This document shows, piece by piece, positions 2,388-25,964 of a DNA stretch of 49,873 nt. Source of the stretch: Triparma columacea (lineage: Eukaryota; Sar; Bolidophyceae; Parmales; Triparmaceae); the NCBI GenBank assembly GCA_030267965.1, contig BRYA01000192.1, forward strand, positions 44,358 to 94,230, written 5' to 3'. Position 1 is the first letter of the stretch; each line of letters begins with the position of its first letter. The position numbers and the translations under genes were made by a program. The notes under the pieces are model-generated. The model saw only the letters and a program-made list of their open reading frames with translations, was not told the DNA's origin and did no database searches.

Positions 2388-4937
2388 TGTGAGCTTTCCC
2401 TTCCCCATTTCATCGTTCATCCAGAAGCCAACAAACTTTTCTCCGTTAGCGAAAACCGTTGTGCCCCTGCCGTGCCTCTTCCCCTCTCTAAAATCCCCCT
2501 CATAACAATCACCATTCGCGAATCGCACGGTTCCGTGTCCCTTAGGGAGGCCATCCTCGTCGATAAGCCCGCTGAAGAACGATCCGTCGGGCCACTTGAT
2601 CTCCGCTTGCGCTCCTTCCAAAAACCTTCCGAACTTGAAGTTGGTCTCGATGCTGCGATGAAGGAAGCGTGTCGTGGAAATGAATACGATAGTGAGTTAG
2701 AATAGTACCATATACTTCGATCCTCCTCTAGTCTGTTCTTACCTCCTCTTCTTTGTCGTTAGCTTTCCGAACCCAGAGTACAATCCATTCACGAACGTGC
2801 CTTCGTAACTACCTTCCTCGAGATTGAGAATACCGTGCCCGTGCTTGGCATCGTTCCTCCAGCACCCGCAATAGATGAAGTCGTCCCCCTTCTTCACCGT
2901 TCCCTCTCCATCCCTCCTGTTCCGTTTGAATTCTCCCACGAAAACACTCCCGTCGGGGTACGTGATCTTCCCCATACCCTCCTTGACGCCATTTACAAAT
3001 GCGCCCGTGTACATCGTGCCTTCCCAGTCACATAACTCCCCGGCATCATCGTGAAATTCATTTTCCTTGAACTTCCCCTTGTAAGTAATAAGTCCCCTGA
3101 CGACGAGCGTTCCGTCAAGAAATTCATCCTCGGAGAAAAAGCCAGTGAAGACTGAGGAGTCTGCAGTCATCGTGCCGCTGCCATCCCTAAGATTATCGAC
3201 AAACATCCCTTCATAACGAGCTCCCGTTCGCTTCACTATGTAGATCCCACGACCCTGTCTCAAGCCCTTAGAGTCGATGTGGCCAAAGAACTGGTCGCCG
3301 TTATCGTACGTATAGGGTGGTTGGTCGTCCGCTTCACCCTGACCCTTCACCCGCTCGCCGTCCATGTTCCCTTCCCCTCCCTCCTCTCCTTCGTCCGAAA
3401 GCCTTATTTCGCTGAGGGTGAGATCTGTAACGTCACCCACAACCTGCTTAGGTTGCTTCTTCTTGTTGTTTGCCGGGGAGTCCCCTGCGATGAGTGAAGC
3501 GAAAAAAGTAAAGAAATGGGCATGAGGGGTGAGGATTGTAGCAGTGGTAATGGAGATAGCGCCTTGCACGGAGGGATGCATGCATTCGCACAAGATGCTT
3601 TTAGCAGCGCTAGAGTCCTTGTCTCATCTCACCAATGAAAATATTCAAACCCACCGGCTGGTCCTGCAATTGAACGAGGAGCGAAGTGAGGAAATCATTG
3701 ATTGTGTCTTGGGTTAAGTCGTCACTGCGCCCCTTTCCTCTTCCCTCCCTATCTCACCTGACGCCACAGCCCTTCGAAGCTGTCACCCGCCGCAAACACG
3801 ACCACCCCCTCTCCGTGCCTTAGCCCTGCACGAAAGTACCCCGTATAGACATCTTCGTTACTCAGTTTGAGCATCCCCCGACCTTCTGGTTGTCCGTTTT
3901 CACACGATCCTGCATATTGACTGCCGTCCGCATAATTCAATATCCACTCTCCGTTCCCCTCCCTCCCGTTCTCCCATCTGCCCTCCCTCACAGTCTGAGT
4001 TGGAGGGGCGCGGGGAAGGGGGGTACGAGTGGGGTGAGTTGCTATTATATGAGAAGTATAGTTATTTTGCGAGGAGCGATCACCTTGCCACTATTACCCT
4101 CCAACTTTCGCGTCTCTCTTCCCTCCCCGTGACGCAAACCAGCCACCCAGTCCCCTTCGAAGACGACGTTGCCATCGCTCAGTGTCCCCTCCCCCCAGTA
4201 CCGACTCGATCGCCAACTTCCACTATACCAAGATGTCGGCACCATACCGGAACCCTCATACTCCCAAGAACTACCCTCCCCGTTTTTCTCGTCCACCTTC
4301 CACTGCCCCGCGTACGCCTTCCTTCCAAAAATATCCTTTAAAGTCCCCACTCCGTCCCTCATGCCATTTAGAAACTCTCCCTCGTATGTCATGCTCTCTT
4401 CGACAAGGACACCGAAACCGTGATAGAGACCGCTCCGCATCTCCCCAGTGTAAGATGAAGCATCGGTATATATGAGGGTCGCAGTGTCGCCCTTCCTGCA
4501 GGAGGAGAGGGAAGGTTTAGCGTCGATTTTTCCGGGCAAAGGTTGTTGAACTGGGAACGTTATCAGCAGGGAAGCCATATGTATATTGACTGTATTTCTC
4601 CTACCCGTTCTCACCTGGTGGAGAACTTTCCACCTTCGTCAAACCCCCCTATGTACTTCAAACTATGACGCGTGCTGATGAAGCTCCCCTTCAACGGCCG
4701 ATCACCCTCAAACTCGCCCTCAAATTCGTCACCGTTAGACCACCTTACGTGCCCATTGCCAATACGGTGCCCTGTGATAGGATCAACGAATCCCTCGAAT
4801 GTAGACTTTACTTTGGCCTCACGGAGCCTACCAGAGAGTCCATTCAAGGTAGTGTAAAGACCCTCAACCGTTCTGAAGGTGGGCTTGGGGGCAAGTCCTT
4901 GACCAGCGGCGGCTTCACAATCGAAAAACGAGTCCAT
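2355..4937 (-). CDS. MORN-repeat protein, six exons
   Basis: Joined by phase, the exons are 4937-4615, 4495-4084, 3994-3758, 3663-3633 (31 bases), 3484-2743 and 2652-2355. Together they give 680 residues. The product is built almost entirely of MORN repeats (membrane occupation and recognition nexus; pattern Y-x-G-x-F-x-x-G-x-x-x-G-x-G). Examples are YEGDFREGKRHGRG and YTGYFRAGLRHGEG. A charged, non-repeat insert of about 60 residues follows the 31-base exon. MORN arrays form long beta-hairpin ribbons that act as membrane-associated or flagellar scaffolds; no catalytic domain is visible. All five junctions agree in phase with GTGAG or GTAAG donors, except the second intron, whose donor is GTGATC. 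Three of the introns carry the shared 3' motif described in the findings. Confidence 0.85.
3633..3663 (-). other. 31-base internal exon of the MORN gene
   Basis: The sequence lies between a TTGCAG acceptor and a GTGAGATG donor. It restores the frame between the exon ending at 3758 (phase 0) and the exon starting at 3484, which otherwise would not join. It codes for ten residues plus one base. Confidence 0.7.
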
Positions 4938-20469: not shown

Positions 20470-23400
20470 CTACGACACTTCCAACGCCCTTGCCTCCTTG
20501 ACAAAGGCGGCCAGCGAGTCAGCCCTCAATTGATCCAGTTTACCCGCCAATTCCAGCATTACAAGTCCCTCTCCCCGCCCCTCCCCACCCCTCTCCACCA
20601 GCAAGACGCCAAGATTTATCAAGCAATTGACGTAGATGGCATCCCTCCCCCCATTCCCCACCTCTACGCATTTTCTGTACCACTTTTCGCTCTCGCTCTC
20701 CCCCCCTAATTCCTCCCAGATGCTACCCAAGTTGTACATGACCTCCAAGTCCTCCCTCCCCTCCTCCGTACCATAAAAGTCCAGGAACATTTCAATAGCG
20801 CCCTCCCTGTCGCCCCGCATATACTTAGACACGCCCAGCGCGTACATAGGTGGTTTCACCACAACCTTCTCCTCCCCTCCTTCAAGCAGCCCCTTAGCCA
20901 CACCCTCGTAGAACTTCTTCCCCCCCTTCCCTCCGGCATTGCCGTGAACGAACGCAATGCCCTCCTTCCCCCCCAATCTCACTCTGCCGTCTTCCTCCAC
21001 TTCCACCTCCTCCTCCACCAAGTGAAGTGTCGCGAAAAGCTCCCCCTCAACATCCACCACGACCCCCCTCTCCATCCCGTGCCGGAGGTAGTATCTGACA
21101 AAGGCCCTCTGGTCGCTCACGTGGAGGCTTGGGTACTCTGAGACCTCCGAGAGCATCTTGCAGACCGAGCGACCTCGACCAACAATCACCCCGCTGTTCA
21201 AGAAAGGGAAGTAAGAGTCTGAGATGAGTGAAGCGACGTCAATTGACCAGAGGATGGTTAGCAGAAAGGCTTGCAATTCCGACACTCCCCGTGGCTCTGC
21301 TTTACTCGTTGCTCTCGCTTCGCTCGCCAACTCTCCTCACCCTCAGTCTTGTACAGCCCCACAATGCCCAAATCTGGGTAGCTGGCCTTATCCCCTGCAA
21401 AGAGAACTTTCGTACCCTTCTCCTCCATCTCCTTGAACTTTCCCTCCAACGCAGTTAAGCCCTTTGTCGCCAGGACATCATAAGCATCAACCAAAACCAC
21501 AAGCCTCCCTTGCTCAACCTATGGCGGAAGCGAGTCGCAAAAACGATTAGGTTTAGGATGAGGGAAGATAAAGTTCAACTGCGAATAGAGGGGACGCCCT
21601 ATCCATGATCTTCTCAAGCAGTCGCTTCGCTCGCCTTCCGCTGCCCCCCCCCTCCCCCCCCCTCCCCCCCCCTCCCTCACCTGACTGCAGACGTGCTCCT
21701 TGAAGAGCCCTACTTTCATCGAGTTCCCCATGTACTTCTCGCCCATACCGAGCACCTTGGCGCTGTGTCCAAACAGCTCCAATGAGGCCTGCAACTTGTC
21801 CAACCCATCCCTATGGGTGGTCGCCACGGTTGCGATCTCGATACCATCAGCATCAACCCCTCCCTCGTCCTTCTCCGCCCCTCCACCCACCCCCACTATC
21901 CTCATGTAAGTCTCCTCGGCCGCCTCCAACTTCCCTCCCCAATACTTCACTACCCCAAGGTTGTAGAGACTCAGTTCCCCCCAAGCTACCCTGTCGGCCA
22001 AACCAAATCTCCTGCCCATGCCGTACCTCCCACCCTCTACCATCCCGTCCCAGTCACCAACTAGATCCCCCCACTGCTCCAAAAGTTCAACTAGTCCTGC
22101 CCCTTCCTCCCCCAAGCTCTCGTGAATCATCTTAAATTTGCAATACACGCAAGCTTCCCCGAGAAACCACCTCGCGTAGCTGTGCAGCACCCTCTTAACC
22201 TCTTCCTCATCCCCGGTGTCATCCCTCAAACACAGCCCAATCTTGTAAGCCATGAACAGGACCTTCACCCCCTGCAACGAGCGAATCGAATTATTGCATT
22301 AGGGTGGATAGAATGGAGTTTAGGACGGTAGTTTACATCGACAAGTTAGTGCTGTGCTTTCCCATTCTCACCTCCTCAAATTCCCCCCTTTTGGCCATGA
22401 GCTCAGCGACGCCGAGGAAAACTTCGACGCCGTTAACCTTATCGGACTCGATCACACCCTCCCCGCCGTTCATAATCTGACGGAACACAACAAAGACAGA
22501 ATTCCTCACCACGGCAGCCCCCGCCTCTTCCAAGTTAAACTCGAGTGGACTCTCAAGCGCGCCTCTCTCCATTTTTTCAGCCAACACATCGTAGTACATC
22601 TTCCCATCATTTCCGTTTCCGTGCACGACGAGCGGCCTTGCACCGCCCTCCTCCCTGAAGCCCTCCATATCGTAATGCAGCCCACTCCCAGCCTCATGCA
22701 AAGTCCTGAAGACCCCACCCTCCACGTCCACCGCGATCTTCCCCGGGTTCAGCAGCATGAACTTGGTGAAGGCCCTTTGATCGCTCACGGCGAGCACCGG
22801 GTAGAACAGGACTTCTCGGAGCATCGCCTTTACGTTCGATGCGCGCCCTATCATAACCCCACTGTTCAGGAACCTTCGATGAGCGAAGCGAATCGTGAAA
22901 GGTGTTGCATAAATGGGTTAGGTAAATTGCGACTACTACTTTTCTACTCTTCTACTCTTCTCCTCTTCTCCTCTTCTACTTTTTGTTCTTTCTCACCTGA
23001 ACTTCCCCTCTTGCGCATCATCATAGAAGCCAGACAAGCTCTCGTCCGGCCAGCACCTAGTCTCCCCTGCGAAAACTACGCTCCCTCTCCCCTCCTGCTC
23101 CTCCCTCTTAGCCCACCACTTCTTAATCTTCATAATCTCGGGGCTCAAAAGCACGTCATAAGAGTCAACGAGGAGGACCAAGTCGTCGTCGTCTATGGAT
23201 TCCACCTTCTCCAAATAAAGGCGGACCTTCATTGGGTTCCCCTCCCACTCCATACCAAGGCCCAGCACCTCTAAGTCGGCGAAACCAAGCTGCGCAAGGG
23301 TTTTGTTAGTGTTCTGTTGTTTGCGTGGGTCGATCTCCCCTATTCTCACCTTTGCAGACCGGATCAAATTGTCCAGTGCCGGACGCCTTTCAGTCGCGAC

Positions 23401-25964
23401 AGTCAAGACCTTGAAGGATTTGATGTCCGCTTTTGCTTTCGTTTCGGCAGCTGAGGGCTTCACCGTTTGTCCTCCAACCAGGACATACTCCCTGATAATT
23501 GCCTCTGCATTCTCTTTATTCTTCAAAATTCCATACTCCACAGATGCCTTCGCGTAAGCAAGCAGCTCTTTCCACCCTTGGTCCTCCTCCTCTTTAAGCG
23601 ATTTTGCGAGGTACGCACAGAAGTCCTTGGCTACCTTGATCCCATCTGCTGTAGCAAAGTAAGCCACAACAGAGGGGTCCAACCAAAGAGCGGAATTCCC
23701 AATGAACATGGCCGCCATCGTATCTGCAACGAACGAAGTGAGTCGCAAAAAGGTTTGGGAGGATGAGAGAGAGAGGGGCGTCTCTTCTCTTCTCTTGTCG
23801 TCTCGTCTCACCTTCGATATCCTTGGTCGCTTTCTCTCCCCCCCCCGCTCTCCTCCCCGTTTCAAGCATCTCCACCCCCTCTTTTAGCCTGTTCATTTCA
23901 AAAAATGTCAGCGCCGCTGTCTTTGCTAGCTCTCCTCTCTTCTCTCCCTTCCCCTCCCTTTCCACCAGCCCTTCGATTGCCTTAGCGTAGCTGCTTTCGC
24001 TTCCCTTCATATCCTGACTCCTTAGAAGCATAGTTCCTTCCATTATTATGAGCCCTGTGCACGCAGGATACTTGTTGATGTACCTTTCGAAAATGGGTCG
24101 GGAGGACGGATGGTGGTGATGGAACAACCCATCGAGATCGAGGTATGTGGGAGGGCACGACGGGTGTGGATATTTGGAAAACAGATCTACAGGCTTCTCA
24201 GTAGTCTCCTCCGTTTCCTCCGTTTCCTCTACCTCCTCAGTAACCTTTTCAGCGTTCGGGCTGAAACCCAACTTCCGCCCCCAATCCGTATCGAATCCCA
24301 TGCCCTCCAAAATTTCCGCAATGACCCCTTTATACCTAGCGTTCTTGACCTCGCTTTTCAGCCACAGAAACTCCTGCACGACATTGAAGTCTAGGAAAGG
24401 GTACCTCGCCTCCAGCCCAAACGCTCCCGCTACATATTCCTCCTTCATCAAGTAAGCCCTCTGCGTGCCCCCGAAGAAATTGTTCCATGGGTAAACGCTC
24501 TCCAAGTCCTCCGGGAACAGTCCCCCGAACGCGCTGTGAGGTACGAATTTCTTCCCCCCGAATCCGTAGTCGCTGATGATCTCGTCCGCCCCAGTCCCGC
24601 TCAGGTAGACCCTGGCACCGTCCTTCTTGGCCTGCCTGCATATTGCACCGAGCCCCACGGCCCCAGGGTCCCTTCTCATATCCATCGTGGTCGAGATCTT
24701 CGTCCTCTCTGAATCTGTCTCAGTGTACCCCAAGTCCGAGGGGTATGTGTAAGGCTCGACGGACGCAAACAGCATGGCTTGATAGGCGTAATAAATGGAG
24801 GAGGAGGAATCGGAGTCGAAACCGTCAAAGGAGGGGTGCAGCATTGAGATGGTGACGTTTTTCCCCAAGGCCCCAAGCTGCGGAGCGAAGCGAAATCGCG
24901 AAAGGGGGTGGGCTTATTGGCGAGAACAGCAAAGCTCGTTCACGCAAAGAACGTGTCTCGCACGCGCGTCTCTTGCTCGGGCGCTTTTACTCTCCCTTCC
25001 AACGTTGCGCCAAAACAAAAATTCGTGTTTGCTCCCCTCCTCCCCCCTCCGCCCTTCTGCTTCTCACCTCCTCCATCCTCTCCACCCTCCGTTCCACGAT
25101 CTCCATGATCTCCTCCCCCCTCACAGTATACGCGTTAACCCTCCTCCCAATCTTCGCCGCCGCCGCCGCAATAGCCCCGGAGTCGTACCCGCTTGATAGC
25201 CCTACGAACACGTCCGTGGTGAGCCCGCGCATTCGCTTCTCGACGGCAGAGTGGAACGCGACGACGAAATCGGAGGTGGAGCCCTTCTTCTGAGAGAGGT
25301 CGAAGGTCCGAGTGTTCATGACCTTTATGGGCTCCCCGTTAACCAGACCCGAAGGGGACATTTGGAAGACTGATATGCTGTTAGGTTCAACCTGCTTTAT
25401 CTCGACCCCCTTAACAGGGTACTCGTTCTCCTCCAGCAGTCTCTTGACCGCGCTCCTATAGCTCGCAATAACGAACGTGTCCTCAAGGAAGGCGTAGAAC
25501 ATAGGCTTCGTACCGAAGGTGTCTGAAGCTAGTATAACTTGACCGGCTGAATAATCAAAGACAGCAAGGGCGAACTCACCGTCTAAGAGAGAGGGAAATG
25601 AGGGACCGCTAGACATGTACGCGGGTATTATGGCCTCCCCGTCTGACGCGTCATCGCTCTTTGAAAATGTAAGCGAGTTATAAATCTCCCCGTTGTACAC
25701 TGCGACTATATCAGGTTTACCCTCACCGTTGGGGGGGTAAGTGAAGGGCTGGGGGGTCGGGTTGGGACCGAACATGTGGAGGAGGTTGTGGGTGTAGTAG
25801 TGGGTGTGGAGGAGGGTCACAGTTGTCAGATCGGGACCTCGGGGGGATTGGAGGCTGTTGGAATGGGGGGAAGGGGGGAGAGGGGAGATTAGGAAGGAAC
25901 AGGGAGAGGTGGGAGAGGGGAGAAGGAAGAGGAGAAGGGGGAGAAGGAAATGAGGGAGGGACAT
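20470..25964 (-). CDS. Secreted asparagine-synthetase-like / TPR / double PLOD-type glycosyltransferase fusion
   Basis: Eight exons (25964-25068, 24877-23812, 23723-23350, 23289-22997, 22873-22372, 22271-21681, 21518-21341, 21218-20470) join in phase at all seven introns to give 1549 residues. Residues 1-21 form a signal peptide and Cys22 follows the predicted cut. Residues 22-220 resemble the class II glutamine amidotransferase part of AsnB (RGPD at 42-45, YNGEIYN). Residues 250-480 resemble the synthetase part (VGLSSGYDSG in place of SGGxDS; LSGTGADEI at about 392-400). Then come TPR-like helices and two glycosyltransferase domains like those of lysyl hydroxylase/LH3. Domain 1 is 758 to about 970, with VDSYDVL (Asp821, Asp824) and VVHGNG. 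Domain 2 is 1188 to about 1400, with VDAYDVL (Asp1252, Asp1255) and FVHGN. TPR-like helices separate and end them. ER/Golgi action is inferred; substrate unknown. Confidence 0.82.
21219..21340 (-). repeat. Fusion-gene intron 7 with inverted GAGCGAAGCGA-type ends
   Basis: In transcript sense the intron begins GTGAGGAGAGTTGGC and then GAGCGAAGCGAGAGC. It ends CTAACC...GTCGCTTCACTCATCTCAG, the near reverse complement of the early motif. The ends could pair as a hairpin, or they could be terminal inverted repeats. Confidence 0.65.
21519..21680 (-). repeat. Fusion-gene intron 6: inverted ends plus three G9 runs at the donor
   Basis: After GTGAGGGA the transcript has three runs of nine G separated by single A, then GCGGAAGGCGAGCGAAGCGA. 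The intron ends GCGACTCGCTTCCGCCATAG, complementary to that motif. This gives both a possible G-quadruplex next to the donor and an end-to-end hairpin. Confidence 0.7.
22874..22996 (-). repeat. Fusion-gene intron 4, clearest copy of the shared acceptor motif
   Basis: The transcript-sense 3' end is CTAACCCATTTATG...CACGATTCGCTTCGCTCATCG then AAG. It is nearly identical to the SelO intron 1 end (ACGATTCGCTTCGCTCATCG then TAG) in an unrelated gene 15 kb away. Confidence 0.7.
23290..23349 (-). other. 60-base, frame-preserving intron
   Basis: GTGAGAATA...CTAACAAAACCCTTGCGCAG lies inside the first glycosyltransferase domain. Removing it joins RSAK directly to LGFADLEV, matching the spacing in the second domain. 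It is 20 codons long without a stop, so a retained form would still be translatable. Confidence 0.7.

Follow-up and report, generated by a model that had tools for sequence, protein, structure and literature searches.

A gene of the alga Triparma columacea, lying on the minus strand between positions 20470 and 25964 of a 49,873-nucleotide window of genomic DNA, is predicted to encode a single chain in which a hydrophobic leader and an AsnB-like amidotransferase are joined through TPR-like helices to two PLOD-type glycosyltransferase (GT) domains. Judged from sequence comparison, this fusion is real and is conserved among relatives, and it points to a hitherto undescribed glycan modification. 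The reading that we prefer, and to which we give an even chance, is that of a lumenal single-chain enzyme which would amidate a carboxylate, probably that of a uronic acid, on a glycan built by its own glycosyltransferases. Residue and motif numbers are those of the 1549-residue T. columacea protein, and coordinates are positions in the window, by which we mean the whole stretch of DNA analysed.

Gene model and domain architecture

A splice model made by eye assembles eight exons into an uninterrupted frame of 1549 codons closed by TAG, and all seven introns are of the GT-AG type with GTGAG donors. The frame put forward in the original prediction, which was made from the letters alone, was reproduced at identical coordinates, and its proposal of one gene is borne out by the full-length homologues P0002 and P0003 (Triparma laevis), which carry the same domain order. 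P0002 (1440 aa) is 40% identical to the T. columacea protein across 97% coverage, and because of this full-length homology chance and mis-splicing are unlikely. When 30-residue windows around each splice were compared with P0002, P0003 and P0004, residues proved to be conserved across exon junctions 2-7 in at least two of the three relatives, with identities at junction 2 of 12/28 in P0003, 11/28 in P0004 and only 4/19 in P0002, and at junction 5 of 14/26, 12/26 and 11/30, respectively. The weak spot is junction 1, which lies in a gapped stretch of the alignment (10/23, 7/19 and 2/28). No stop interrupts exon 2 where the AsnB part passes over into the linker. Chance joining of the exons was considered and is rejected in view of the homologues and the residues conserved over the junctions.

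Pfam searches identified GATase_7 at residues 70-173 (E 2e-15, 57.3 bits against a cut-off of 25), Asn_synthase in three stretches (E 1e-12) and GT_PLOD (PF25342) in two stretches (E 7.8e-60, 202.5 bits against a gathering cut-off of 27), in agreement with the AsnB-like N-terminal half and the two PLOD-type domains that had been proposed. The TPR-like linkers of that proposal also stand, though the TPR matches fall below the Pfam cut-offs; TPR_12 at 1460-1511 has an E of 1.4e-5 but reaches only 25.6 bits against 30.1. The second GT_PLOD repeat alone matches human LH3 (E 6e-13) and mimivirus R699 (E 9.7e-8), and the first, searched within the whole protein, matches both as well. No Pfam match to a 2-oxoglutarate/Fe(II) lysyl hydroxylase domain was found up to E 1 across the 1549 residues. 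The AlphaFold structure models are those of two relatives, P0007 and P0136, and not of the T. columacea protein. The model of P0007 (predicted local distance difference test score, pLDDT, 81.3; predicted template modelling score, pTM, 0.75) has an AsnB fold followed by helices at 506-688 and 6gq3 as its best Foldseek match (E 1.4e-20). The model of P0136 (pLDDT 85.6, pTM 0.60) has AsnB and GT_PLOD folds, which supports a predicted GT_PLOD fold in this protein with a single GT domain.

The synthetase half

The T. columacea protein contains the class II amidotransferase residues Cys22, Arg42, Asn91-Gly92 and Asp108, which we take to serve in the glutaminase reaction. Residues 1-510 miss the curated cut-offs for asparagine synthetases, scoring 116.5 against 267.1 bits with TIGR01536 and 90.7 against 499 bits with NF006949, and likewise score 56.2 against 816.9 bits with TIGR03108 (XrtA/PEP-CTERM amidotransferase, eps_aminotran_1). 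The Glu of the SGEG motif, which is presumably catalytic in the asparagine synthetase mechanism and is present in aligned E. coli AsnB and human ASNS, is replaced by Thr394; across 207 motif-bearing sequences this position is Q in 102, S in 53, T in 28, A in 7, M in 5, H in 5, C in 4, E in 2 and another residue in 1. E. coli AsnB and human ASNS resemble the T. columacea protein in an alignable glutaminase part and share the fold of the modelled relatives, whereas the replaced Glu, the scores below cut-off, the leader and the GT fusion set the T. columacea protein apart. The same genome encodes a separate AsnB with SGEGADE and LSGGLDS. By its sequence, the AsnB side is recognisable only as a class II amidotransferase, and the synthetase half belongs to a sister family of the asparagine synthetases.

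Four AsnB halves were aligned, and viral and bacterial sequences were searched with the result. Of the 533 viral stretches matched by pattern, 360 encode relatives; the top 80 of these show 36-41% identity over most of the domain, and the best 80 among the bacterial matches listed are 22-36% identical and mostly partial. T4-like phage genes, recognised by eye as UvsX-like, lie in some of these viral loci. The 50,697 named phage records yield seven matches; a level of 46.6% is reached by S-SCSM1 alone, a single phage with two records, while among giant viruses one relative bears the name Hyperionvirus (P0154).

The leader and the catalytic cysteine

The N-terminal hydrophobic leader of the original prediction was found at residues 1-21, where it ends directly at Cys22. 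The 207 motif-bearing sequences were drawn from the relatives listed, one listing being 120 of 2870; 21 are without a readable N-terminal region, 168 begin M-Cys and 18 place the Cys otherwise. Four of these 18 begin V-Cys, P0123 apparently has a misplaced start and in P0137 just 8 residues precede the Cys, so that a hydrophobic stretch directly before the catalytic Cys is seen in 12 of the 186 sequences with a readable N-terminus. P0188, P0191 and P0203, outside the 207, are also leader-like. Signal peptidase cleavage is governed by the residues at -3 and -1, and Pro before the cleavage makes a poor site. This rule fits 8 of the 12 leader sequences and fails in the T. columacea protein, P0002, P0007 and P0082.

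The glycosyltransferase domains

The first GT domain (GT1) keeps a set of ten residues (Table 1) whose equivalents, mapped by eye, are assigned to UDP, Mn2+ and sugar binding in the LH3 and R699 papers. A DxxD plus His metal site is found in both domains, as D821/D824/H961 and D1252/D1255/H1392. LH3/PLOD3 and R699 share with the T. columacea protein the GT_PLOD family and the Mn- and UDP-binding motifs, with the fold seen in a modelled relative; the T. columacea protein differs in its lack of a lysyl hydroxylase domain, its two GT domains with metal motifs, the TPR-like helices between them and the absence from GT1 of an equivalent of LH3 Lys259. At the place of Lys259 in the second domain (GT2), the T. 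columacea protein is the only one of three sequences with Lys.

Spread and history of the fusion

The original prediction knew of no protein with this order, which is wrong because P0002 and T. laevis TL16_g00263 (P0003) share it and 22 of 118 listed profile matches combine Asn_synthase with GT_PLOD. P0002 and P0003 both follow the succession glutaminase, Asn_synthase, linker, GT_PLOD, TPR, GT_PLOD, TPR; they are approximately 40% identical to the T. columacea protein, and P0003 as annotated differs further in having no leader, no catalytic Cys and an incomplete second GT, which is perhaps a gene-prediction fault. P0004 is truncated at the 5' end before the Cys and SSGYDS sites and otherwise has the same order. 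The profile search scored 7991 candidates, those sharing the most words, and among the 118 proteins listed 23 carry PF25342, 22 of these with PF00733. Proteins combining AsnB and GT_PLOD are listed from Effrenium, Perkinsus chesapeaki, Perkinsus olseni, Amoebophrya and many metagenomes.

Those with one GT (Effrenium P0129, Perkinsus P0134, P0144 and P0145, Amoebophrya P0148, and P0127 and P0136 from metagenomes) resemble the T. columacea protein in their AsnB-like half and GT_PLOD, and in some of them a leader ends at the Cys. They differ in that the GT is single and mostly more divergent, with mostly weak and partial matches to a local GT profile, and the AsnB tree separates most of them from the T. 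columacea set, P0127 excepted. In our own Pfam scan of four, P0127 and P0134 lay above the GT_PLOD cut-off of 27, and P0128 (26.9) and P0148 (26.1) just under it.

A GT tree of 20 rows, limited to domains that span over 140 positions of the profile and with the second domain of P0003 dropped, places GT1 of T. columacea beside the GT1 of relatives (92/96) and likewise unites the GT2 domains (100/99). This grouping suggests that the GT duplication predates these species. The AsnB tree, a quick tree drawn from the 286 of 299 rows that passed a length and coverage filter, omits 28 redundant rows (including fused P0129, P0144, P0145, P0157, P0165 and P0191) and holds 11 of 14 viral loci drawn at random. 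On it the fusion label needs two changes, one of them forced by the starred branches, and in the approximately unbiased (AU) test a single clade of 19 fused rows was rejected (p 9e-37, log-likelihood 487 lower), for a group that was picked after tree inspection and to which P0182, P0188 and P0197 were added after the GT scan, the GT match of P0197 being only 12.1 bits. A single origin of the AsnB-GT_PLOD fusions is therefore disfavoured by the tree and the AU test, a verdict that we hold loosely. Since the AsnB domains of the fused proteins form no single group, repeated fusion or loss is the likely course.

The same genome has a further GT_PLOD frame of 645 aa (open reading frame 325-2262 of L003, G000:C253:72021-75725), in which a leader-like start and a TPR-rich part, both recognised by eye, precede GT_PLOD. 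It shares these three elements with the T. columacea fusion and differs in that its frame holds no AsnB half and its GT sits on a long branch; it is a possible fusion partner or donor of the TPR-GT part.

Glycan context of the relatives

In the S-SCSM1 phage the AsnB-like gene is flanked by glycosyltransferases, methyltransferases and GDP-sugar enzymes. More generally, tblastn placed one or more of ten glycan families in 69 of the 80 AsnB loci, compared with 30 of the 80 UvsX control loci from the same collection, a contrast that is an upper bound because the AsnB loci include near-duplicates, the control comprises less DNA (529,333 against 688,398 bases), two contigs, those of L012/L233 and L058/L189, belong to both sets, and the families had been chosen from the AsnB loci themselves (seven) and from S-SCSM1 (three). 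The control loci moreover represent a fixed replication neighbourhood. By family, the counts in AsnB and UvsX loci were 27 and 0 for Nucleotid_trans, 21 and 0 for GT11, 20 and 0 for GT2, 7 and 1 for UDPG_MGDP_dh and 8 and 0 for DegT, and those for epimerase (38 and 2), GMD (16 and 0), GDP-fucose synthase (27 and 1) and GME (30 and 2) overlap because these four are related.

Other relatives are fused to Glycos_transf_1, Glyco_transf_8, Glyco_transf_34 or an EamA transporter. According to the literature, the bacterial AsnB-type proteins WbpS and WbqG make uronamides, and WbpS is placed in the eps_aminotran_1 family (PMC7468200). By their published descriptions, which are the basis of the comparison, WbpS, WbqG and PGN_1234 are uronamide amidotransferases that resemble the T. 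columacea protein in being AsnB-type and in acting in glycan biosynthesis. Both the phage neighbourhoods and the further fusions of AsnB with glycosyltransferases speak for a glycan, and not for a protein, as the probable substrate of amidation. To our knowledge none of the three bacterial enzymes is fused to a glycosyltransferase.

Further AsnB-like proteins were noted in passing. P0173 and P0219 carry EamA/TPT-type transporter domains and are possibly nucleotide-sugar carriers. A group of about 1040 aa (P0158-P0185, mostly with an MCGILFT start) has a second half without an assigned fold, which in P0166 gives a weak Glycos_transf_2 match below the cut-off.

Proposed function and alternatives

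In the mechanism that we propose, the leader would bring the chain into the endoplasmic reticulum (ER), and its removal would leave Cys22 as the N-terminal nucleophile of the glutaminase. From the domains and residues present, Cys22 would then free ammonia from glutamine, and the Asn_synthase-like domain would bind ATP through the SSGYDS loop to adenylate and then amidate a carboxylate, most likely that of a uronic acid in the growing glycan and not that of free aspartate. The GT_PLOD pair would transfer hexose from a UDP-sugar onto the same acceptor, with Mn2+ bound at DxYD plus His, while the TPR helices may hold the acceptor. A narrow literature search brought up no account of this fusion or of any AsnB-type amidotransferase in the lumen, and we know of none.

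Several observations weigh against this reading. The residue preceding the Cys is P, P and E in the T. columacea protein, P0002 and P0007, contrary to the signal-peptidase rule; P0003 as annotated has neither leader nor catalytic Cys; and in 168 of the 186 sequences with a readable N-terminus the Cys is at position 2 and there is no leader. In GT1, Asp162 of R699 corresponds to Ser907, and the place of LH3 Lys259 (R699 Lys222, six residues past the His) is taken by Gly in all four GT1 sequences, while in GT2, where the metal site and Lys1230 are retained, both Trp places are occupied by Tyr. The glycan context is that of relatives at approximately 40% identity and not of the T. columacea protein; the loci include near-duplicates such as L021-L023, the mutually related epimerase, GMD, GDP-fucose synthase and GME make up four of the ten families, and CTP_transf is commoner in the UvsX control (19 against 28). 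Finally, the genome yields 72 matches to the collagen model PF01391, the best at 42 bits and some in long open frames (C485 with 1350 aa, C326 and C498), so that a collagen-like substrate is conceivable.

These last matches favour an alternative, along the lines of the original prediction, that we regard as unlikely. In it the enzyme is a protein modifier: a wall or scale protein that is secreted would have its carboxylates amidated or cross-linked, and its hydroxylysines glycosylated by the PLOD-type domains. According to the literature, hydroxylysine glycosides are what the LH3 and R699 GT domains act upon, the TPRs could hold a protein, and relatives with the AsnB fold include the isopeptide-forming lasso cyclases, which match far below the cut-off. 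Many of the PF01391 matches, however, lie at contig ends or occur in several frames at one place (C112, C201, C697 and C731) and are probably repeats, and in phages the relatives of the AsnB part have nucleotide-sugar and glycosyltransferase genes as neighbours, while some relatives are fused to other GT families. Quite improbable in our judgement is an AsnB part that is a mere glutaminase or scaffold serving the glycosyltransferases, its adenylating site dead; this would account for the loss of the SGEG Glu and for a rule that predicts no leader cleavage before Cys22, but the T. columacea protein and P0002 retain the Cys, Arg, Asn-Gly and Asp and the SSGYDS loop, and Lys501 is invariant in five aligned sequences.

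An ordinary asparagine synthetase, accidentally fused and making free asparagine, is very improbable and is counted as rejected: the class II amidotransferase/AsnB fold of the relatives' models and the sequence match would suit it, but both NCBIfam cut-offs are missed, the SGEG Glu is replaced, the genome has its separate AsnB and the fusion protein has an N-terminal leader. That the gene model wrongly merges two or more genes, as introns inferred by eye from DNA sequence might allow, is hardly credible given the homologues predicted as single chains with this order, the stop-free exon 2 and the conserved junctions 2-7.

Beyond the lumenal glycan-amidating enzyme itself, we tentatively raise the possibility, which we consider doubtful, of a widespread and undescribed class of AsnB-like glycan amidotransferases, common to phages, protists and at least one giant virus, which would amidate the uronic acids on surface glycans. 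Within protists the class would have been relocated to the secretory pathway, where the catalytic Cys would be unmasked by signal peptidase instead of methionine aminopeptidase, and on more than one occasion it would have been joined to a glycosyltransferase making its substrate.

Features and genomic setting

Table 1. Features of the T. columacea fusion gene in the window
Feature	Positions	Strand	Basis or remark
Whole gene, 8 exons, 1549 aa	25964-25068, 24877-23812, 23723-23350, 23289-22997, 22873-22372, 22271-21681, 21518-21341, 21218-20470	-	Splice model and full-length homologues
Hydrophobic N-terminal leader, residues 1-21, up to Cys22; -3,-1 = T,P	25902..25964	-	Sequence
Class II glutaminase (N-terminal nucleophile, Ntn), residues 22-215, end approximate: Cys22, RGPD 42-45, NGEIYN 91-96, SDG 107-109	25320..25901	-	Pfam and alignment
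Asn_synthase-like putative adenylating domain, residues 230-505, limits approximate: SSGYDS 257-262, SGTGADE 392-398, K501	24260..25277	-	Holds intron 1, 25067-24878
TPR-like helical linker, residues 540-740	23467..24157	-	Holds intron 2; matching stretch helical in the P0007 AlphaFold model; best Pfam TPR stretches only elsewhere
First GT_PLOD, residues 757-981: W794, K800, D821-Y823-D824, W859, N880, D908-Q909, H961	22561..23418	-	Holds introns 3 and 4
Middle TPR-like helices, residues 1045-1175	21879..22271	-	Weak TPR_6 match 1145-1170, below cut-off
Second GT_PLOD, residues 1187-1414: Y1224 for W, K1230, D1252-Y1254-D1255, Y1288 for W, D1336-Q1337, H1392	20878..21845	-	Holds introns 6 and 7
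C-terminal TPR repeats, residues 1425-1511	20587..20847	-	TPR_12 below cut-off; designed TPR proteins match, E down to 3.1e-4
Seven introns, span	21219..25067	-	Splice model

The gene lies on contig G000:C190 of a 37.9 Mb assembly (G000), and its neighbours are ordinary eukaryotic nuclear genes for an ATR-like kinase, alpha adaptin, a PIP5-kinase and SelO. Six of its seven introns (21219-25067) have 3' ends that are variants of TCGCTTCGCTC-NTYGCAG, which also occurs at 3502 and 7417 on the minus strand. The exact form CGCTTCGCTCRTYGCAG has 93 copies in the genome and its reversed control none, and the motif looks like part of a dispersed, introner-like intron family.

Elsewhere in the genome, a GT_PLOD match adjoins a membrane-anchor-like stretch in one open frame (L006, G000:C784:9723-12845). 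Glyco_transf_25 (PF01755) matches at G000:C255:33067-33459 (L173) and C372:31725-32066 (L174), with E values of 2.3e-5 and 7.9e-4, and the relative P0005 carries Glyco_transf_25 besides GT_PLOD.

Implications

If the lumenal glycan-amidating reading is true, amidated glycans would be expected on Triparma-like algae and dinoflagellates, and ATP and glutamine would have to be present in the ER/Golgi of those organisms. It would also suggest a function for the phage genes that are labelled 'asparagine synthase', and would provide an example of surface-sugar chemistry common to phages and protists.
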